NCBI GenBank assembly: GCA_002011125.2
Contig: MTMF02000009.1
Location: 1,580,989-1,644,988, forward strand
DNA from: Candidatus Hydrothermarchaeum profundi
Lineage (GTDB): Archaea > Hydrothermarchaeota > Hydrothermarchaeia > Hydrothermarchaeales > Hydrothermarchaeaceae
Direction: 5' to 3'
DNA: 64,000 nt
Notes under the pieces: model-generated
Databases searched by the model: none
What the model was told of the DNA's origin: nothing
What the model saw: the letters and a program-made list of their open reading frames with translations, nothing else
Translations under genes and position numbers: made by a program
In this document: piece after piece, positions 50,889-62,737 of the stretch
Layout of the letters: the number at the start of each line of letters is the position of its first letter
Position numbering within the stretch: position 1 is the stretch's first letter

Positions 50889-52394
50889 TTGTTAAGACTT
50901 ACTCCTATGCGGATTGCAATCCTAGTTTTTATAATGACCGTAGCAACCGCTTATGCTTATAGTCCCCACGAAGACCCATCAAAACATCCTGGAGCTTACT
51001 GTATAAACTGCCACAAGAGATTTATCGTAGATAACCCTACCGTGGTAGAGATGTTTCCATGTAATAAACAGCCATGTCATAGTTTAGGTGAGGAGGAAAG
51101 GGCCGCTATCCATCTAAAAGAATACATGTGCGAGGACTGCCATGCAGCAATGTCAAAAGGCTTCGACATCCACAACATCCACAGAGGAAAAGTCAACTGC
51201 AAGATATGCCACCTCAGCCCCAGAGGATGGAACTCATCCATAGCAACAATACCAGAGCCAACAAAAAAAATAGAATCAGAAGGCTACACCATCTACATAC
51301 CCGGAGACACCAAATGCCCATACTGCCACAAAACAGCAGAAAAACCAAAAAAACTACACCAAGTACACCAGCCAGTAATCAACACATCCTGCAAGACATG
51401 CCACGGAAGTCTACATAAAGGGGATATCTGCATTAATTGCCATGTGAAATATTCCATCAAAAAGAATTCGGGCTGCATAACTGCATGTCATAGTTTAGGT
51501 GAGGAGGAAAGGGCCGCTATCCATCTAAAAGAATACATGTGCGAGGACTGCCATGCAGCAATGTCAAAAGGCTTCGACATCCACAACATCCACAGAGGAA
51601 AAGTCAACTGCAAGATATGCCACCTCAGCCCCAGAGGATGGAACTCATCCATAGCAACAATACCAGAGCCAACAAAAAAAATAGAATCAGAAGGCTACAC
51701 CATCTACATACCCGGAGACACCAAATGCCCATACTGCCACAAAACAGCAGAAAAACCAAAAAAACTACACCAAGTACACCAGCCAGTAATCAACACATCC
51801 TGCAAGACATGCCACGGAAAAATGAAGCCCTCTATTCTAAAACTATGGGGAATAGAAGCTAAAAAAATTAAGAAAGAGGGTTTATTAGAATCATTAAATA
51901 AAAAAATCTCTAGCATTTTCCAAGCAAAAGTAGATATGAGCTGTAATTTATGCCATGAAGAACTAGTATCAAGTTTCTATACAAGCCCTGTTACTAAAAA
52001 AATCTCTAAAGTACATATGTGGGCTAGCCAAGCAGACATCTTTTTCGGGCCTAACGGAGAACTGAAATATGAAATGGAGTTTACAATTAATAATGAGAGT
52101 ACTGCCTGCCTATTATGTCACAAGATAGAAACAGTTAACGTTTATACAGGGAGCCATAAGATATACTGGAGAAAATGTACTAATGAAAGCTGTCATGGAG
52201 ATATAGCCTCAAATGGTACACGAATCTTCGTGGATGCAGGTAGCTTTAACTTGCCTGCATCAGCTAGAAATAGTCACGGATTATGGATTCAAAAAATAGA
52301 AAAAAAAGGATGGACTCAGGGATTTAGAGAAATCTGCGGTTGTCATCAGATACATCCTACCTACTCAAGAAGCTTAATAACCTCTGTTTTATAA
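50889..52394 (+). CDS. Large multiheme cytochrome c with duplicated heme cassette
   Basis: This 501-residue protein has a signal peptide ending near TAYAYSP, then 15 clear heme sites (CXXCH: 11; variants CX4CH: CNKQPCH and CTNESCH; CX3CH: CITACH; one further CXXCH) plus a CGCH at the end. A cassette of 112 codons with four hemes (CEDCH, CKICH, CPYCH, CKTCH) is repeated with identical DNA, 137 residues apart. It is exported and would form a heme wire between the membrane and an external donor or acceptor. The TTG at 50889 follows AAGGGGA, with an ATG at 50907 as alternative. It is related to the cytochrome at 56305. Confidence 0.87.
   Translation: MLRLTPMRIAILVFIMTVATAYAYSPHEDPSKHPGAYCINCHKRFIVDNPTVVEMFPCNKQPCHSLGEEERAAIHLKEYMCEDCHAAMSKGFDIHNIHRGKVNCKICHLSPRGWNSSIATIPEPTKKIESEGYTIYIPGDTKCPYCHKTAEKPKKLHQVHQPVINTSCKTCHGSLHKGDICINCHVKYSIKKNSGCITACHSLGEEERAAIHLKEYMCEDCHAAMSKGFDIHNIHRGKVNCKICHLSPRGWNSSIATIPEPTKKIESEGYTIYIPGDTKCPYCHKTAEKPKKLHQVHQPVINTSCKTCHGKMKPSILKLWGIEAKKIKKEGLLESLNKKISSIFQAKVDMSCNLCHEELVSSFYTSPVTKKISKVHMWASQADIFFGPNGELKYEMEFTINNESTACLLCHKIETVNVYTGSHKIYWRKCTNESCHGDIASNGTRIFVDAGSFNLPASARNSHGLWIQKIEKKGWTQGFREICGCHQIHPTYSRSLITSVL
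51073..51408 (+). repeat. 336-bp exact direct repeat, copy 1 (heme cassette)
   Basis: This stretch is identical to 51484-51819 (411 bp downstream). It covers 112 codons with four heme-binding motifs. Third positions are strongly A/C-rich with almost no T, unlike the flanking gene sequence. Confidence 0.9.
51484..51819 (+). repeat. 336-bp exact direct repeat, copy 2 (heme cassette)
   Basis: This is the second identical copy of the cassette at 51073-51408. The 75-bp linker between the two copies differs from the cassette and has ordinary codon use, so the repeats arose by copying of a defined module. Confidence 0.9.
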
Positions 52395-54100
52395 GTATCA
52401 AGCATATTTTTGATCTCTATCTCGTTTAATTTTCCTTGTGAACTTTCAGTTTCAAAGAATCTTTTTGGAATCCTAATCGCATCTAAATTAAAGCCTTCTC
52501 TTGTCTTAAACTTATATTTTATCTTGAAAATTTCCTTACCTATACCTAAAAATTCCTCTACCTCCTTCTGGATTCCTAAAGAGTTAAGAGCTTTTTCTAT
52601 TCGCTCTGGGGTATAAACCTCCCTTGCGAATAAGCATATCACGAGGGAATTAGCAAAACACCGCCAATAGTCTTCTCTCAATAAATTACTTACAATTTCG
52701 GTCTCTCTTAATTTACCTTTCAATAATTTTTGATCCAAGCTGTATCCCGCATTATCCAGGTGCCCATGTCTCGGACCGGCTATGTGCCCTATAAGATTCG
52801 CCCTGCCCGTATGATAACCAGCCATACCGAGCCCCCCTAACGATAAAGCATATTCCTCTCCACCAAACTTTTGTGCAGCCGCCGTTTCACCTTTAGCTAA
52901 GGCCTTATAAAAATCATTGGGCATCTTAACAATATACTGGACGGCCTTTTTATAGGCCTCCACATTACCAAAAGCCAGATCTATGCCAAGAGTATCATGT
53001 TTAGATATGAGATGGTTTTCATAGGCCTCCGTTGCCCAAGAGAGAGTCGTCCCAGTAGACATTGCATCTAGCCCCAAATGATCCACAGACTCTATTAAAC
53101 TTAGAACTTGCTCTGCCAGAGGTATCCCTAACAAGCTACCTAGCGCGAATATAGGCTCATAATCATAAGGGATCCTTTTGGTCTCGAATTCGAATCCCCT
53201 GGCAAAAGGAATCTGCATTGTAGCTATATGAATACATCCAACCGGACAAGCAGTACATGCAATGTGCTTCGCCATATAATTCTCAGCAAGATGCTCCCCT
53301 GAGATATACTCGGCATACTCAAAAGTAGAAGATTTAAGATTCCTAGTCGGCAAGCCCCTAATCTGATTCAAGGGATTGACATTAATAGCAGTACCATAAT
53401 CATGGTATTTGTTAAGACTATCAGTATTCACAATAACATCATACAACTCTTTATATGCCTTCAAATATCCTTTTTTATCCTCCATAGGTAGGTCTTTTGA
53501 ACCAGAAATCGCAATGGCTTTAAGATTCTTGCTCCCAAATACCGCTCCTAAGCCAAGCCTACCAAAATGTCTGTATGTGTCAACATTTACATTTGCATAT
53601 CTTACTAAGTTCTCTCCTGCGGGACCGATCCTTATTATACTCCTTCTACCTGGAGCGGGTTCTACATCCCTTAAAATCTTTCCCACAGTATACGCTGAAG
53701 ATATACCCCATATCGATCTCGCATCCTTAAAGTAAACTTTTTCATTTTGGATGGATAGATAAACCGGGCGATCACTTTTTCCTTTTATAACAATAGCCAT
53801 GTTTCCAGAGAAACGCATAGCGGCACCTAGCCTACCACCAGCATAGCTCTCGCCTAATTCGTTTGTCAAAGGAGATTTAAAAAGAGCAACCGCCTTAGTA
53901 CATGTAGGAAATGCCCCAGTTAAAGGTCCGGTAGATAGGATTATTGGATTCTCAGGGCTGAGAGGGTCTACGCCTTTGGGACAGTTCTCCATAAGGAGGC
54001 TTATACCTACCCCTACCCCCCCAATATATTTCTCAAAAAGGTCTTTTCTTTCCTCCTGATACACTTCTCTATTTCCAAGGTTAATGTAAAGTACATTCAT
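52361..54100 (-). CDS. aor: Tungsten-containing aldehyde:ferredoxin oxidoreductase
   Basis: This 579-residue protein has the AOR N-terminal barrel (IGGVGVGISLL, SYAGGRLGAAMRFSG) that binds the tungstopterin, and the [4Fe-4S] cysteines C282, C285, C289 (CTACPVGC) and C481 (YWRCF), matching the spacing of Pyrococcus AOR. It oxidises aldehydes to acids with reduced ferredoxin, in the cytoplasm. It is coupled to a ferredoxin gene (4-nt overlap). Its 3' end overlaps the convergent cytochrome gene by 34 nt, which is unusual. The aldehyde substrate is not known. Confidence 0.92.
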   Translation of the reverse strand: MNVLYINLGNREVYQEERKDLFEKYIGGVGVGISLLMENCPKGVDPLSPENPIILSTGPLTGAFPTCTKAVALFKSPLTNELGESYAGGRLGAAMRFSGNMAIVIKGKSDRPVYLSIQNEKVYFKDARSIWGISSAYTVGKILRDVEPAPGRRSIIRIGPAGENLVRYANVNVDTYRHFGRLGLGAVFGSKNLKAIAISGSKDLPMEDKKGYLKAYKELYDVIVNTDSLNKYHDYGTAINVNPLNQIRGLPTRNLKSSTFEYAEYISGEHLAENYMAKHIACTACPVGCIHIATMQIPFARGFEFETKRIPYDYEPIFALGSLLGIPLAEQVLSLIESVDHLGLDAMSTGTTLSWATEAYENHLISKHDTLGIDLAFGNVEAYKKAVQYIVKMPNDFYKALAKGETAAAQKFGGEEYALSLGGLGMAGYHTGRANLIGHIAGPRHGHLDNAGYSLDQKLLKGKLRETEIVSNLLREDYWRCFANSLVICLFAREVYTPERIEKALNSLGIQKEVEEFLGIGKEIFKIKYKFKTREGFNLDAIRIPKRFFETESSQGKLNEIEIKNMLDTYKTEVIKLLE

Positions 54101-54600: not shown

Positions 54601-55233
54601 ATGAGATTTAGTTCAATTCTTATAGTGATCCTCGTTATAACTGGAGTTTACCTACTTCCATCCGTGCTGGCAAAGTTTGCAGGAACTCACACCGTAGAAG
54701 TTAATCAAACAGGAGGCGTACAACAACTTAGATGCATCGAGTGCCATGAATACGCATTTGATGAATTAAACTCTACAGTTGCACAATCGGTGCTTAAAAA
54801 ACACAAAAATGCTGCAGGAAATTCTACTTACACTTTAAGCTGGCTCCAACGTAGCTTGAACAATCAAACCGACGAAGGAATTTGCATTCTATGCCATGGA
54901 GTAATAAAAGCTTACGAGAATTTGAGTCATACAGGAGTAGTAATGAGAGTATGCACGGATATAAATTGCCATGGAAACAATGAAACTACAAACAACACAA
55001 TGTACAGCGCGGGAAATGTTGGACCAGTTCTTGGAAATACTAACGCCCATGAAGAGTGGTTTGATGATATGGGTTCTTACTTGACTAGACATCAAAATGA
55101 GTCTGGCGCTAACTTAACTCGTGATTATTACACTTGCTTAGGTTGTCATACTTATACTGAAGTGGACATCAGTATTAGCAGAGCTAACTATGATCATTCA
55201 GACCCCTCATACAGCAAAAATAGGTATATTTAA
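54601..55233 (+). CDS. Small tetraheme cytochrome c
   Basis: This 210-residue exported protein has a signal peptide (about 1-22) and four heme sites: CIECH, CILCH, CX4CH (CTDINCH) and CLGCH. It shares its layout and phrases (KFAGTHTVE, CTDxxCHG, CLGCHT) with the cytochrome at 55428, so they are paralogues. No heme-ligand pattern for a known enzyme is visible, so electron carriage is assumed. The leader is absent (TATA 26 nt upstream). Its stop at 55233 is followed by an AT-rich gap. Confidence 0.85.
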   Translation: MRFSSILIVILVITGVYLLPSVLAKFAGTHTVEVNQTGGVQQLRCIECHEYAFDELNSTVAQSVLKKHKNAAGNSTYTLSWLQRSLNNQTDEGICILCHGVIKAYENLSHTGVVMRVCTDINCHGNNETTNNTMYSAGNVGPVLGNTNAHEEWFDDMGSYLTRHQNESGANLTRDYYTCLGCHTYTEVDISISRANYDHSDPSYSKNRYI

Positions 55234-55427: not shown

Positions 55428-56204
55428 TTGAATACGAAATTGTTGATGCTGATGGGAACAATCGTGTTGGGTATATATGTGCTCCCGAGCGTAACAGCAA
55501 AATTTGCAGGGTCCCACACTATGGAGGCTAATACTACGGGAGGCGTTACTGAAGTGCAGTGCGGTAATTGTCATCAGTACATTCAAGACGAGTTGAACTT
55601 ATCGGATGGTAGTCTATCAGATGACGTAGTTACTGCCCATATAACTGCTCTTCAAGATACTAATTATGCCAATGCCAGTAACCAAAGTGCCCCGCTAAAG
55701 ATGGATGCTATTACAGATGCTGATATTACTACTGTGTGTCATCTCTGCCACAAAGTTCAATCAGGAGTTAGTGGAGGACACACCCAAGTAACCATTAGAG
55801 CCTGTACAGATTCAGCGTGCCATGGCTATAACTCAAGCGCAAGCCCATTATATTCGAGTAAACTGAATATAACTGAGAAGCTAGGTTCACCCTATGATGC
55901 CCACAATGTTTGGTATAATGCTATGACAAGCGCATCACCGTATAAAGCAGATGATGTAGATGGATGGGCTGGAGACTTAGTAAACCAAACTGCTGTGAGC
56001 GGTGGGAACTATACGATAGCATTTTATACCTGCTTAGGATGCCATACTCACGTGGGAATCGAATTCTCGCCAATAAACAGGTGGAACGCCTATAGTATCA
56101 ATGTATCTTTCAATAATCAGGGAGCTGCTACTGTAGAGTTTATAAATATGACTAGCACAAATACGACTTACGCCTCTAAGTCCCACGGCTCCGTCTGGAG
56201 ATAA
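55428..56204 (+). CDS. Tetraheme cytochrome c, TTG start
   Basis: A TTG at 55428 follows GGAGGTG by 5 nt, a clear start. The 258-residue product has a signal peptide (about 1-24), then four heme sites: CGNCH, CHLCH, CX4CH (CTDSACH) and CLGCH. It is a paralogue of the protein at 54601 with a longer C-terminus lacking hemes. Its leader carries a hairpin overlapping the ribosome-binding site. It would carry electrons outside the membrane next to its paralogues. Confidence 0.85.
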   Translation: MNTKLLMLMGTIVLGIYVLPSVTAKFAGSHTMEANTTGGVTEVQCGNCHQYIQDELNLSDGSLSDDVVTAHITALQDTNYANASNQSAPLKMDAITDADITTVCHLCHKVQSGVSGGHTQVTIRACTDSACHGYNSSASPLYSSKLNITEKLGSPYDAHNVWYNAMTSASPYKADDVDGWAGDLVNQTAVSGGNYTIAFYTCLGCHTHVGIEFSPINRWNAYSINVSFNNQGAATVEFINMTSTNTTYASKSHGSVWR

Positions 56205-56304: not shown

Positions 56305-57015
56305 ATGCGGCTGACTAATATGTATAGGGAGTATACAAAGTACTTAGCGTTTGTAATCGCTATTACAGCGGCCTTCGAGTTGGTATACGCATATAATCCC
56401 TACGAAAACCCTAAGACTCACCTAGGAGCAATTTGTATTGACTGCCATAAGCGGTTTAAAGATGTTATCGATAATCCAACTGTATCTTCTTTCAGACCAT
56501 GTTATAAAGATGACTGTCATTTATCTGCAGATAAATGGGGAGGCAAGTCGAAGAGGGAAAGCCTACATCTCTCACGAGAAATCTGCAAAAATTGCCATAC
56601 TGAGATTCACACCACCCATAGAGATCGAGTAAATTGCAGAGTATGCCACATGAGTCCTAGGGGATGGAACTCCTCAAAAGTAAGGATACCTGTATCCAAG
56701 GAACAGAGGGTTTTTGAGGAGATGACCATTACTATACCTGGTAGCGCAGAATGTTCCTATTGCCACTTTAAAATTCCTAGTGCAAAAAACATACACGAGG
56801 TACATTCTCCAGAACTAAAGAATAACCAAACATGCTTAAAATGCCATGGGAAAGTAATCGAGAAGCGGCCTGACCTTATAGCTAAGATGAGTGGTGAAAA
56901 GATTGAAGAAAAGAAAAGAGGTTTAATGAACTCTCGGCCAATAGTTGAATTTATTAGGTTTTATAACCTAATAACGATGCAGCTGATAGAGCTATTTACA
57001 TCAAAGGTGAGATAA
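56305..57015 (+). CDS. Hexaheme cytochrome c
   Basis: This 236-residue protein has a signal peptide or signal anchor (about 1-35) and six heme sites: CIDCH, CX4CH (CYKDDCH), CKNCH, CRVCH, CSYCH and CLKCH. Its middle (CRVCHMSPRGWNSS and then CSYCH, CLKCHGK) aligns with the four-heme cassette of the cytochrome at 50889, so that cassette is a shared module. A hydrophobic C-terminus (IVEFIRFYNLITMQLIELF) may anchor it in the membrane. It ends directly before the signal peptidase gene, with AGGTGA as the latter's ribosome-binding site. Confidence 0.85.
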   Translation: MRLTNMYREYTKYLAFVIAITAAFELVYAYNPYENPKTHLGAICIDCHKRFKDVIDNPTVSSFRPCYKDDCHLSADKWGGKSKRESLHLSREICKNCHTEIHTTHRDRVNCRVCHMSPRGWNSSKVRIPVSKEQRVFEEMTITIPGSAECSYCHFKIPSAKNIHEVHSPELKNNQTCLKCHGKVIEKRPDLIAKMSGEKIEEKKRGLMNSRPIVEFIRFYNLITMQLIELFTSKVR

Positions 57016-57852
57016 GTGGTTTTTCAACATCAATATCAATATCAGTATCAATATCAAACACAACTAGGATTTCAATATCAGTCTTTTGACCAGCTTATCC
57101 ACGAGCTTCCATTAACGGTTATTGTCCTTTCAATTTTTATAGCTTTGAGCCCTTTTTTTATATATTTACTTCATAGAAGAGGCGTTATTCCATCCGTCAT
57201 GAAACCTATTTTTAAGGCAGGATTACTTGTAAAAACAAAGTTAAGAGATAGAAGCATAAAATCTAGGATAACCGATGAATATACTAGTCTCAGAGATAAG
57301 AGAATAGAGTTCGGTTCGGTCGTATCCTTGGGTTTTTACTTGGCAAACGTCGTATTATTTTTATTGGTAGCTACAAAGATGATATTTTTTGGATTAGTGG
57401 TTTCTCAATCTATGCTTCCTACTCTAGCGCCTGCCGACTTAGTACTTTGTGAAGCTATCTCGATAAATAGTATAGAAAAAGGCGATATAGTTGTATTCTC
57501 GCCTCCAAACGGTGGCCCTATGACAATTCACAGGGTAGTAAGAGTGGGCCCGGATGGAATTAGAACCCGCGGGGATAACGTGGGGACAATGGACCCATGG
57601 ACGCTGAAGAAAGAGGATATCGTAGGTAAAGCGGTCATGGTTAATGGTAAACCCGTTATTCTAAAGAACTTTGGAACATATTTTATGCCTCGAAGAACTT
57701 ATATTCCAGGATCTGATCCCGCGTATGATTTTGTTAGAGGCATGATAAACGCCGTACATAGGTTTGGTCCGATATTTATTATATCTCTTGCTCTCTTAGC
57801 CCTAGTGTTCAGTTTTGGGGGAAAAAAGAAAAGGTATCTAACATATTCTTAA
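57016..57852 (+). CDS. Signal peptidase I (SEC11/S26-like) with N-terminal Gln-Tyr repeat
   Basis: This 278-residue protein begins with a Gln/Tyr repeat (HQYQYQYQYQTQ) coded by tandem CAATAT units. Two transmembrane segments follow (about 33-52 and 101-129) and then the catalytic serine S132 in SQSMLPT. The IHRVV histidine and the RGDNVGTMDPW acid region follow, as in the archaeal/ER type. A C-terminal span lies at about 250-268. It removes signal peptides from exported proteins, which include the neighbouring cytochromes. The GTG start abuts the cytochrome stop; AGGTGA provides the ribosome-binding site. Confidence 0.88.
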   Translation: MVFQHQYQYQYQYQTQLGFQYQSFDQLIHELPLTVIVLSIFIALSPFFIYLLHRRGVIPSVMKPIFKAGLLVKTKLRDRSIKSRITDEYTSLRDKRIEFGSVVSLGFYLANVVLFLLVATKMIFFGLVVSQSMLPTLAPADLVLCEAISINSIEKGDIVVFSPPNGGPMTIHRVVRVGPDGIRTRGDNVGTMDPWTLKKEDIVGKAVMVNGKPVILKNFGTYFMPRRTYIPGSDPAYDFVRGMINAVHRFGPIFIISLALLALVFSFGGKKKRYLTYS

Positions 57853-57882
57853 AAAATAATAGAAAATTAAAAGGCACTAAAT

Positions 57883-58851
57883 ATGAAGCCACAAGAACCG
57901 CCAAAAATTGGGGAGCTGCCTCCAGAGGAACATGCTATTGGAATTTACGCTGGATTAGCTCTGGGAGGGCTTATTCTTGGAACTGGAGCCTCAGTATTAT
58001 TTAGAGACATACTCATGACGTTTACTACAGAGGGTTTGACTTTTAATCTTATCATGATATTCAGGATCTTCCTATTCTTTTTTTCAGCTTACGCGTCTCT
58101 AGCATGCTTTTTCGGGCTATTCAGAATGATAGGGTTACAACGTATGTTAGTGCGGGAAGTTGATAAGGAATTTAAAGACTTTGTGATGTATGCTAGACCT
58201 CTGATAGAAGAGATAATTAAGCAGAGAATCGTGGGTGAAACAATCGCGGAAAAACTTGATAATCTCATACGTTCAACGACAACGGTAGAGGATAAAAGAC
58301 GGTTTGAATATGGCAGACCACTAGACATTAGAGTACCTAAGTGGGGAGAGTTTCTATTGTTCGTCGCACTTTTGGCTAACATAAGTATTGGGCTTTTTAT
58401 TTTTTTAGAGAGGCATCCTTGGGAGCTCGTACCTTATAGTATCATCCTGTTGGCGATTGGCTGGTGGGTAGTGATAGCAAAATACTTCGGTCTTTTATAT
58501 GAGATACGTTCTCAGTATTTTCCAGCATTTTTTATACTTCTCATGCCAACATTATCTATACTCCTTAGAGCTTATCTAGAACTTTATCAGACCCTTTACT
58601 TAGTTTTTATATTTTTATTCCTCTATGTCATTTCAATGTACTTTTACTTCAAATACCTCGCAACTGGAGAGATTCCGCTATTTATAATAAAGAGCTTCTC
58701 GAGAGTAGGCATAGATTTAGAGAAGAGCAAGGAACTACCCTTTCACTTAAAAAAGTATATGCCCCCAGAGAAACCTGAAAAGAAAGAAAAGTTTATTACC
58801 ATAAAAATGAGTGAGAAACTAAAAACGATTTTAAAGAAGTTTAAAAGATAA
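57883..58851 (+). CDS. Membrane protein of unknown function (322 aa)
   Basis: I do not recognise this family. Two spans lie in the first third (about 20-42 and 53-80), a soluble region (about 85-150) follows, then four more spans (about 158-178, 182-200, 210-226, 234-255) and a basic, proline-rich C-terminal tail (PPEKPEKKEK) in the cytoplasm. It lies 30 nt after the signal peptidase gene and 5 nt before an AAA+ ATPase gene. The three genes 57883-60255 form one operon, so it may be the membrane partner of that ATPase in assembling or positioning the cytochromes. Confidence 0.6.
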   Translation: MKPQEPPKIGELPPEEHAIGIYAGLALGGLILGTGASVLFRDILMTFTTEGLTFNLIMIFRIFLFFFSAYASLACFFGLFRMIGLQRMLVREVDKEFKDFVMYARPLIEEIIKQRIVGETIAEKLDNLIRSTTTVEDKRRFEYGRPLDIRVPKWGEFLLFVALLANISIGLFIFLERHPWELVPYSIILLAIGWWVVIAKYFGLLYEIRSQYFPAFFILLMPTLSILLRAYLELYQTLYLVFIFLFLYVISMYFYFKYLATGEIPLFIIKSFSRVGIDLEKSKELPFHLKKYMPPEKPEKKEKFITIKMSEKLKTILKKFKR

Positions 58852-58856
58852 AAAAA

Positions 58857-59789
58857 ATGACCGCTAAAATATTTTTAAAACTCTTAAATCAATATACTGA
58901 AGCTATTAGAAACTACTGTGAAGCATTAGGTTGGGACTACGAGAAATTTAAGACTAGTATTAGTGATGAAGGAATCAGTCACCCCGAGTTATATTTGGAG
59001 GATCCAAATGAGGGGATACTTGACAGGATAAGCCAGTTCTTGGAGCCCAGCAATCAGAGCTCAGTTTTAATTATCTGGGATGATGTGGGGATGGGTAAGA
59101 GTTCGATTAGAGATTTTGTTTCGAAATCCTTAGATGAAGTAGGGAGCTATCATACGGTCGTTATAACTGACCCCAGACTTACTCCATTACAACTTCTTCG
59201 TGCAATCGCGGACCAGCTAGATGCTAAGGCGGATGTTTGGAACGATCGGGGGAAAGTTAAAGAAGCCCTTTGGAAGAGGATGTTGGAAGTTACTGGGCTT
59301 GGGATAAACATAGTTATATGGGTTGATGAAGCAGAAAAGGTGGATAAAAATATAATATCCGAACTAAGAGCTTTAAGCGATATTAAAAGAGAAGACGGCT
59401 CTAAGCTTTGTAAGATTATTCTCTCAGGGACCCCTCGGTTAAAAGAGAAACTAGAGGATTACATCGAGAGCCGCTCAAGCGACGTACTCGCCTTTGACGA
59501 TAGGGCAAGTTTAAATACTCTTCGGCTTAATAAGTGGAAACCAGGAGATATCTATAACTATTGGAATCTTCTAGCTGAATATTGTGGAGGTATTAATCCC
59601 TTCAGTAAAGAAGCCGCTGAAACCGTATGGGAAATAAGTGATGGTAAACCGAGGACAATTGCTCAGATTACTAAGCTTGTTATAAACCAAAAGGCAATGG
59701 ATTATTATAAGAGAGGTGGAGCACCAGAGATAACTCCTGAGTTTATATTGGATACCATCAGAAAACACTTAGGTGAGGGAAGTGCGTAA
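58857..59789 (+). CDS. AAA+ (ExeA/Orc-like) ATPase
   Basis: This 310-residue P-loop ATPase has Walker A WDDVGMGKSS (about 74-83), Walker B IVIWVDEAEK (about 163-172) and a sensor region SGTPRLKEKL (about 204-213). A C-terminal winged-helix-like tail is possible. ExeA/TniB-like and Orc1/Cdc6-like ATPases look similar. The neighbours suggest a membrane-linked role rather than replication. It overlaps the next gene by 17 nt. Confidence 0.75.
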   Translation: MTAKIFLKLLNQYTEAIRNYCEALGWDYEKFKTSISDEGISHPELYLEDPNEGILDRISQFLEPSNQSSVLIIWDDVGMGKSSIRDFVSKSLDEVGSYHTVVITDPRLTPLQLLRAIADQLDAKADVWNDRGKVKEALWKRMLEVTGLGINIVIWVDEAEKVDKNIISELRALSDIKREDGSKLCKIILSGTPRLKEKLEDYIESRSSDVLAFDDRASLNTLRLNKWKPGDIYNYWNLLAEYCGGINPFSKEAAETVWEISDGKPRTIAQITKLVINQKAMDYYKRGGAPEITPEFILDTIRKHLGEGSA

Positions 59790-60255
59790 AAAGTTGGATC
59801 TGCGAGAGAAACTTAGGAAGTTGTCAGAGGAGAAGAGGAGAGAGACAGCATTATTAAGGGCTAAAAAGATCGTAGAAATCCCTCAAAAACCTAAACTACT
59901 TTCAATATCTGAGCTGAGTTTTCCTCAAGGGTCACCTCTTAAGCGCTCCGATATAATTACCTCGAAGACAAGATTAGAGGAGACGCTAGTGCATGAGTCG
60001 AACTCTGAGATAGAGGTAAAATGGACAGTTACTGAGGATGCATATGCTGAAGAGTTTGGCTCTGCAGTTAGAGAGGGATTTACCCAAGTTAAAACACATC
60101 CTCCTACGTATGCTTTTAGGTATAAAGAGGGAGGAATAGTTCTTTCACACTTAGGTGCATACACTTTTGTATTGGGGAGTTATACATTAGAGATTGAAAA
60201 GCTTTCTGAGCTTCTGGAGTTTGCAATCAGGGTTTTAAAGCCTAAAATCACTTAA
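59773..60255 (+). CDS. Unknown protein following the AAA+ ATPase
   Basis: This 160-residue protein starts at a GTG (59773, or 59782, whose 8-nt overlap GTGCGTAA with the ATPase stop looks like the coupled overlap at 7680). The N-terminal 40 residues are a charged helix (LDLREKLRKLSEEKRRETALL), which may be a coiled coil. The rest has alternating beta-type strands ending in an amphipathic helix. No known family is recognised. Its overlap with the ATPase implies a direct partner. Confidence 0.6.
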   Translation: MREVRKKLDLREKLRKLSEEKRRETALLRAKKIVEIPQKPKLLSISELSFPQGSPLKRSDIITSKTRLEETLVHESNSEIEVKWTVTEDAYAEEFGSAVREGFTQVKTHPPTYAFRYKEGGIVLSHLGAYTFVLGSYTLEIEKLSELLEFAIRVLKPKIT

Positions 60256-60262
60256 GAAATAA

Positions 60263-62737
60263 TTAACTTTCTTCTAAAGCTTTTTCATATTGTTTCTTAA
60301 GAGTCTTATACGCTTTCTTGGATATTTTACCCTCTTCGTATGATTTTCTAAGTTCAGCTAACGATTTCTCTAAGTATTCTCTATCTGGGTTAGATACCTG
60401 ACCGGCTGAATCCTCTGCGATCATCCTAGAGTAGCGAACTGGTGGTATCTCCAGCCTTGTCTCAATAATTATCAGAGGAAGTATCCCAACAGATAAAAGG
60501 ACTATTCCAAGCCAAAGGATGCCTACTCCTGGGATAATTTTTACAGTTAGCGGCACAATCACACTGCCTGGTCTCTGAGTTGCTAATCCCTGAAAGATGA
60601 CATAAACATCAGAGAATAACCCTCGATTGATGTAGACGTGGGTCACTTTCCCAAATTTTCTATCATCAATGGACTCTGCAAGGCCACCTCCTATGTACTT
60701 ATCGTCTTTATATACGCCTAGTTCTATGGCTGTAGCCCACCATCCATCTTGAGTAAGATAGACTTCGATATCATTTACAGCGATGGCATAACCCATTAGG
60801 ATACTTCTTTTAATTCCTTTCTCATCTGGAAAAGTAAAACTCGTAGACATCTCAGCTTCGTATACTGCGCTTATTAAAGTTCCGATGAGAATCAACGCTA
60901 ATCCCAGATGAATGAGGTAGATGCTAGCCTGTCGAAGTTTACCTTTCAGTGTTTTAGGAGAAGATATTCCATGAACTATTCTATAAATAGCTCCCATGCC
61001 GCCAAAAAGAGCCAAGGGTCCTAGAGAATTTATGTAGAGATTCGCGGTAGGTTTCACAATAATTGAAACTGCTGTAGCTATAATTACCCCGGCTGCCATC
61101 CTAGTAAGTTTATCTTTATTTATCTTACTGTAGAGAAGGCAAAATCCCATAGCAAGCATCAGCAATGCAGTAAAAGGGAGGCTCCATTTATTAAAAAACT
61201 CTACTCCTACAGAAATTTTAGCTCCAGTTCTAGCCTGTACTAGCATCGGATAAGTTATACCCCAGAAGGATACGAAAGCTAGTACAGATAAGAGTACAAC
61301 TGCTATATAGAACAGGTTTTCACGTGTTAGAAGCTCTATTTTCTCCTCTTCCTCTTTTTCTTCTAGTTGGACATTTGAATTTTTACTTTTTAAATCTTCA
61401 CCTTCATCCCACACCCTCCTTAAGATTAAGAATAATACGAATGTAAGAGCAAATATAAAGATAGCCTGCCTAAATGTAGGCAATGCACTGCCTCCTTTTT
61501 CGAGGAACTTCTTGTAGAGTGCTAATACAAACTGGGAGGAAATGAATGAGCAGATTAAATTTATAGAGTCTTTATTCACCTGTGTTATCTTACCTTCATT
61601 TCTACGGTAGAAATCTATTCCGAGTATTAATGAAACAAAAGCAATATTCACCATAAGAAATGCTAGCCATGGCCCTGTGGTCGTTTGAGCAAAAGCATGA
61701 ACGGATTCCCACAAGCCGCTTCTCGTTATAAACGTAGCGTAGACTACAAGGAGAAAGGTTATTACTGCTAAAAAGGGCGAGAATATCTTAAAGTCCCCTC
61801 GCCTCTTATACTGTACTGAAGCATGCAATAAGCCGGTCAATGTTAACCAAGGTATAAATGAAGATGTTTCAACGGGATCCCATGCCCAGTAACCGCCCCA
61901 GCCGAGTACTTTATATGACCAGAACCCTCCTACCGCTATGCCTAAAGTAAGGAAGAGCCATGCAAACCTATTCCACTGCTTGCTATATGATTCCCAGGTT
62001 GCCTCTCCCGTAGAAAGGTATACCAAAGCTCCAGATAAAGTAATAGTAACTGCAGCGTATGCGATGAATATTACTGGAGGATGCACCGCCATCCAAGGAT
62101 CTCTAAGCAACGGATTCAAGCCGTTTCCTTCTATAGATGCCACTAACTCTGGTGTGACATCAGGGTATATCTCATATAGGGTCTTAAAAGGGGTTACTAG
62201 GATGGTAAGTGTAATGAAAAAGATGCCTATAAGTAGATTTATAATCTGGGATTTTCTAATAAATGTATTCTCTAATCCGCTCTTCTCCTGTATGATCCAC
62301 GTATATACAAAAATTAACCACGCCCAGAGAAGATATGTTCCCTCCTGTCCTGCCCATACTGCGGAGAGTTTATATACCGTTGGCAGAGTCGTGCTACTAA
62401 ACTGCCATACATAGTTTATAGAGAAATCCGACTTAAGGAAGTAATATGTCAGAAGAATAACTGAAAATGTAAGAAACCCTGTGGTACATCTAATCGCCCA
62501 AGGAATAAGCTTTAGTGCTTTTTTATATCCTTTTATTTCATAAGCTAATAGCATTATTATCGAAGTAGCTGCGAGGAGCCAACTTAAGGCGAGTAAAACA
62601 TTTCCTTCTGATAGTCCTCCAAGACTATAAAGGCCAAAAGGTAATGATGAGAGATTGCTTCTAAATGGCAACAGTAAGAGAATCACAGAGGCAATGACGA
62701 TTAGTAGTGGAAGAATTGGCTTCTTATCTCCTTCCAT
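60263..62737 (-). CDS. ccmF: Cytochrome c heme lyase CcmF
   Basis: This 824-residue integral membrane protein has about 14-16 spans and the CcmF heme-handling WWD motif (WGGYWAWDPVETSSF, about residues 278-292) with flanking histidines. The last 40 residues are a soluble helical tail (LRKSYEEGKISKKAYKTLKKQY) like SHOCT-type tails, uncommon for CcmF. It attaches heme to the CXXCH sites of exported apocytochromes, which fits the multiheme cytochromes here. CcmF is longer than bacterial CcmF (about 650). It follows ccmE by 2 nt. Confidence 0.93.
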   Translation of the reverse strand: MEGDKKPILPLLIVIASVILLLLPFRSNLSSLPFGLYSLGGLSEGNVLLALSWLLAATSIIMLLAYEIKGYKKALKLIPWAIRCTTGFLTFSVILLTYYFLKSDFSINYVWQFSSTTLPTVYKLSAVWAGQEGTYLLWAWLIFVYTWIIQEKSGLENTFIRKSQIINLLIGIFFITLTILVTPFKTLYEIYPDVTPELVASIEGNGLNPLLRDPWMAVHPPVIFIAYAAVTITLSGALVYLSTGEATWESYSKQWNRFAWLFLTLGIAVGGFWSYKVLGWGGYWAWDPVETSSFIPWLTLTGLLHASVQYKRRGDFKIFSPFLAVITFLLVVYATFITRSGLWESVHAFAQTTTGPWLAFLMVNIAFVSLILGIDFYRRNEGKITQVNKDSINLICSFISSQFVLALYKKFLEKGGSALPTFRQAIFIFALTFVLFLILRRVWDEGEDLKSKNSNVQLEEKEEEEKIELLTRENLFYIAVVLLSVLAFVSFWGITYPMLVQARTGAKISVGVEFFNKWSLPFTALLMLAMGFCLLYSKINKDKLTRMAAGVIIATAVSIIVKPTANLYINSLGPLALFGGMGAIYRIVHGISSPKTLKGKLRQASIYLIHLGLALILIGTLISAVYEAEMSTSFTFPDEKGIKRSILMGYAIAVNDIEVYLTQDGWWATAIELGVYKDDKYIGGGLAESIDDRKFGKVTHVYINRGLFSDVYVIFQGLATQRPGSVIVPLTVKIIPGVGILWLGIVLLSVGILPLIIIETRLEIPPVRYSRMIAEDSAGQVSNPDREYLEKSLAELRKSYEEGKISKKAYKTLKKQYEKALEES

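Follow-up and report, generated by a model that had tools for sequence, protein, structure and literature searches.

Intragenic gene conversion and the concerted evolution of repeated units are known from many gene families. Among archaea, the accessible parts of two reports describe intermolecular gene conversion between the chromosome copies of haloarchaea (PMC8223754, PMC11276520). Multiheme cytochromes diverge fast and are difficult to classify, as stated in the available portion of one paper (PMC12977616), and those of Hydrothermarchaeota are reported, in extracts of two papers, to carry up to 67 heme motifs, of the CXXCH and CXXXCH types, and have been proposed to function in extracellular electron transfer (PMC6759336, PMC6775978). 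The latter papers count heme motifs, and their extracts describe neither a 6+6+4 layout nor the conversion of heme modules. A search of the open-access literature found no paper on gene conversion or concerted evolution of multiheme cytochromes and nothing on intragenic recombination of heme domains.

The 501-aa cytochrome analyzed here stems from the same lineage as the published multiheme cytochromes of Hydrothermarchaeota. The process that we propose for its gene resembles known gene conversion in the non-reciprocal copying between homologous stretches, which leaves a sharp-edged tract of identity, but differs from it in that the stretches are two heme modules of one archaeal gene and that the case is read from one genome. 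The gene lies in a stretch of 64,000 nucleotides (the window, to whose positions all unprefixed coordinates refer), which belongs to a contig of 1.92 Mb; the genome measures 2.19 Mb. The gene and its domains are as follows:

50889-52394, plus strand: predicted exported multiheme c-type cytochrome gene, layout 6+6+4 hemes (501 aa; Pfam)
50997-51407, plus strand: hexaheme unit 1 (unit alignments)
51426-51818, plus strand: hexaheme unit 2, putative donor of the conversion (unit alignments, spacer marker)
51939-52391, plus strand: C-terminal tetraheme domain, homologous to the stand-alone tetraheme genes of the locus (sequence match)

The reading frame opens with TTG, and an ATG is present at 50907. 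The protein has the features of a multiheme cytochrome, with 16 heme motifs (12 CxxCH, 2 CxxxxCH, 1 CxxxCH, and 1 CxCH), matches above the Pfam cut-offs to Cytochrome_C7 and MtrC-MtrF II/IV, and a hydrophobic N-terminus that is read from the sequence only. Because it contains 17 histidines in addition to the 16 of the motifs, bis-His ligation of all 16 hemes is possible. The protein probably carries electrons outside the membrane. The profile of the hexaheme unit is similar to OmcA (4lmh_A, E 2.6e-6, OmcA residues 173-350), and Pfam PF22113 is matched as well, a weak likeness to decaheme cytochromes of the OmcA/MtrC type among sequences that are all dense in CxxCH. A search of solved structures with the whole 501-aa protein as a single sequence gave no match, and structure models of the hexaheme unit (10 rows) and the whole protein (2 rows) reached a mean pLDDT of only 45.5 and 29.6, too low for use. 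At the last heme site, the motif is a non-canonical CxCH (52335-52346), whose counterpart in the long ortholog described below is CxxCH.

The two hexaheme units share a stretch of identical DNA:

51073-51408, plus strand: exact 336-bp tract, copy 1, putative recipient (DNA identity)
51409-51483, plus strand: linker between the tracts, 51% DNA identity to the stretch preceding copy 1
51484-51819, plus strand: exact 336-bp tract, copy 2 (DNA identity)

The copies are 100% identical over 336 bp, as claimed in the preliminary description, and lie in frame within one open reading frame, at a start-to-start distance of 411 bp. Elsewhere in the genome, the only match to the tract at the DNA level is one of 72% over 89 bp in the stand-alone hexaheme gene at 56305, whose product was correctly described as containing a diverged version of this module (identity of 46% across query residues 14-175 and of 36% across the unit). 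The DNA ahead of the two tracts is 51% alike, compared with a mean of 48% and a maximum of 68% among 60 shuffles; there is no residual likeness, and the edges of the tracts are abrupt.

The age of the two-unit layout can be judged from relatives of the gene. A protein search of 150 genomes yielded seven with a match and a profile search of 394 genomes yielded eight, in both cases including the genome itself; the match in one of the latter (G006; E 9.6e-6) was read, judged to be a different multiheme protein, and excluded from all counts. The long form is present in only one relative, G007, a member of another family in the same order, whose protein aligns with query residues 10-486 at 46% identity, whereas the other five (G001, G003, G005, G010, and G012) possess a stand-alone hexaheme cytochrome. 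The long protein of G007 has both hexaheme units and the tetraheme tail in the same order, the MFPC-K-PCH start of unit 1 is matched, and the two units differ from one another over most of their length. Because the layout is the same and the units of G007 are diverged, the doubling is older than the species. The genome of G007 is 62% complete, and its long gene is the sole long ortholog known.

An alternative explanation of the identity is that a single-unit gene was recently doubled and that the doubling in G007 was independent. Exact identity is indeed expected of a new copy, and Geobacter is described as having duplicated entire multiheme cytochrome genes (PMC12977616, available portion). 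However, a tandem copy of 411 bp would have left the linkers alike, whereas their identity of 51% is that of shuffled sequence, and the full-length co-linearity with G007, from the MFPC-K-PCH start to the tetraheme tail, points to a single 6+6+4 gene in the ancestor, which makes a fresh duplication unlikely. Even less probable, and in our view very unlikely, is an artefact of assembly or polishing that conceals a single copy or two differing copies. Although repeats of 336 bp are difficult for short reads and two contigs of G007 end inside the long cytochrome gene, the contig here is 1.92 Mb long, the reading frame continues uninterrupted through the two copies, each copy has unique flanks, and the gene agrees with that of G007 in layout; moreover, a collapse would yield one copy instead of two.

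With a doubling that predates the species and an identity of recent date, the simplest interpretation is gene conversion. The features of a conversion tract are present, namely, older paralogous units, sharp-edged identity, and a spacer of the donor type in unit 1. The spacer, which extends from the second heme motif to the following His-Leu/Met, comprises 14-21 residues and includes a Trp in all seven first or sole units outside the 501-aa cytochrome (unit 1 of G007, the hexaheme cytochrome of the genome itself, and those of G001, G003, G005, G010, and G012), whereas it has 10 residues and lacks Trp in both second units of G007. Since both units of the 501-aa cytochrome have the 10-residue spacer without Trp, unit 1 apparently carries sequence of the unit 2 type, from which we infer that unit 2 was the donor. 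The reverse direction has one possible trace: unit 2 contains a non-canonical CxxxCH (51474-51491; the counterpart in G007 is CxxxxCH), and this odd motif, which adjoins the edge of the tract, could be a scar that marks unit 2 as the recipient instead.

The identical tracts contain an inner stretch with an aberrant codon usage:

51144-51407, plus strand: T-free third-position tract, copy 1, 0 T in 88 codons (change-point analysis)
51555-51830, plus strand: T-free third-position tract, copy 2, 0 T in 92 codons (change-point analysis)

The edges of the T-free tract in copy 1 lie, within 2 lnL, at 51114-51159 on the left and 51392-51407 on the right. Outside the tract, T occupies 37 of 110 third positions in the stretch tested for copy 1 and 74 of 235 in that tested for copy 2. 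The copied tract encloses the T-free one, and the right edge is common to both; the repeat starts, however, with 23 host-like codons (51075-51143), seven of which end in T. The avoidance of T claimed for the entire cassette is therefore real (no T in 88 third positions) but restricted to 51144-51407, which is shorter than the repeat. Among the 93 codons from 51129 onward, host usage predicts 33.6 that end in T, whereas only one is seen (for the 92 codons that do not end in T, log10 P is ca. -21). A genome-wide pattern scan for third positions without T was uninformative, because its 2063 forward and 1359 reverse matches were equaled by the control; ORF statistics on a sample of the genome were used in its place. 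Among the 483 mechanically called ORFs of this sample (ca. 479 kb, 22% of the genome), the cytochrome gene has the strongest internal break in third-position T (T3), with a delta lnL of 27.4, followed by genes with 16.8 and 11.8.

Two simple causes of the bias are ruled out. The tract is not an effect of high expression, because the ribosomal protein genes of the L3 cluster (T3 ca. 0.3, C3 ca. 0.1) resemble the rest of the genome. The bias is also not a trait of the whole gene family, which the preliminary description had named beforehand as a finding that would speak against it: it is absent from the stand-alone hexaheme gene at 56305 (T3 0.30) and from the relatives, and the ortholog in G007 is simply GC-rich.

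A third possibility is that the tract was made in place, without import, by a strand-biased change from T to C (partly from G to A) or by selection at the DNA or RNA level. Codons ending in a pyrimidine almost all end in C and those ending in a purine mostly in A, as a one-way change from T to C would produce, and the search for a donor of the tract was without match. By contrast, four-fold degenerate sites and Ile codons favor A over C beyond the prediction for a pure T-to-C change (an estimate from the codon table), and both the flanks and the stand-alone hexaheme gene are unaffected. We know of no mechanism that would produce such a tract in place, and this explanation is improbable.

The likeliest source of the T-free tract is the import of an allele fragment, a reading that we hold with moderate confidence and do not present as demonstrated because a donor was found neither among the 394 genomes nor among the genome contigs, viral contigs, plasmids, and phages searched. 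The tract shows codons unlike those of the host and sharp edges, as expected of an imported fragment, but lacks a matching donor lineage. When 20 relatives were sampled for codon style, four yielded no ORF, and none of the 16 with callable ORFs uses the T-free style throughout; the nearest is G001, a member of the same family. The closest named relatives are MAGs of Hydrothermarchaeota, MAGs labeled 'Euryarchaeota', and archaeon BMS3Abin16, on which we base the placement of the genome in the Hydrothermarchaeota order. Entire genes that are poor in T3 occur elsewhere in the same genome and encode a glycosyltransferase 4 (L042:13713-14711; T3 0.08), an integrase (L037:15025-16338; 0.10), and a TFB (L044:7711-8631); with 8-10% T versus a genome average of 32%, all three were probably acquired. 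Single T-poor genes with A/C-ending codons are present also in the relatives G010 (L062:16802-17362) and G003 (L087:861-3140), so that the style recurs across the order. The occurrence of whole low-T3 genes here and singly in relatives suggests that genes of such style, probably foreign, reach these archaea.

Taken together, we consider it likely that the gene inherited an ancient 6+6+4 layout, that one unit then received the T-free replacement, and that a recent conversion proceeded from unit 2 to unit 1. As judged from codon use, a homologous stretch with T-free codons would first have taken the place of about 264 bp in one of the units, probably in unit 2. Recently, non-reciprocal recombination would have overwritten the corresponding part of unit 1 with 336 bp from unit 2, made up of some 70 bp of host-like DNA plus the entire T-free tract, whereas the flanks of both units would have remained uncopied and are still unalike. 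Since host-like and odd DNA were copied together, the donor unit seems to have contained the odd tract before the conversion. The preliminary description had offered foreign origin or gene conversion as alternatives; both seem to apply, but to different parts, with the 336-bp identity resulting from conversion and the inner 264-bp T-free tract from a foreign-like source.

There are signs of a similar process in G007. In a core of 33 codons, its units 1 and 2 use identical codons at 27 of 31 sites with the same residue, whereas 15.4 are expected from genome usage (P 2e-5); the contrast with the rest of the same unit is weak (26 of 30 versus 26 of 42 codons, Met and Trp left out; Fisher p = 0.03). 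The same MAG contains a second long-cytochrome fragment on contig C65 (L058:7749-8213), which shows a frameshift as well as an insertion in the tail of unit 1 and is a candidate paralog, strain variant, or pseudogene. Compared with its counterpart on contig C66, the fragment shows short identical stretches amid unlike sequence. Both the core and these stretches fit repeated conversion of modules, without proving it.

The exchange of heme units as modules, which had been proposed from the window alone, gains support from the occurrence of hexaheme units both alone and doubled and of the tetraheme domain both alone and fused, and further from the second, shorter homogenized core in G007. The proposed wires of variable length find no such backing, because the sole comparable long ortholog likewise has 16 motif histidines in a 6+6+4 layout. 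Tentatively, the heme modules of these archaeal cytochromes might be routinely homogenized and swapped by conversion inside single genes, among paralogs, and with alleles of other lineages, which would make the long cytochromes mosaics whose modules change as units under a fixed heme count. If heme modules overwrite one another, trees of whole cytochromes mix different histories, and the foreign-looking patch of codons that is carried in the copy is an unusual natural marker of such overwriting. The mechanisms are ordinary, but as an example of protein evolution through the copying of internal parts the case is unusually clear.

Downstream of the cytochrome gene, the window contains further heme-related genes:

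54601-55233, plus strand: stand-alone tetraheme cytochrome
55428-56204, plus strand: second stand-alone tetraheme-type protein of the locus, with four heme motifs read from the sequence
56305-57015, plus strand: stand-alone hexaheme cytochrome with ordinary codon use (6 motif His, exactly 6 other His)
60263-62737, minus strand: CcmF-type cytochrome c assembly protein (Pfam)

The tetraheme tail of the 501-aa cytochrome matches a gene of G003 (2e-14) and the gene at 54601-55233 (2e-5). The presence of the CcmF-type gene makes a c-type attachment of heme to the 501-aa cytochrome plausible. The heme genes are adjoined (57016-60255) by genes for an S26-peptidase-like membrane protein, a membrane protein without a Pfam match, and an AAA ATPase, which may serve the export or processing of the cytochromes. 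The neighbors of the heme genes in relatives look similar to these, and the heme-gene neighborhood of the cytochrome is partly conserved across the order. The 3' end of the cytochrome gene overlaps tail-to-tail by 34 bp (52361-52394) with a gene for an aldehyde ferredoxin oxidoreductase on the minus strand (52361-54100).
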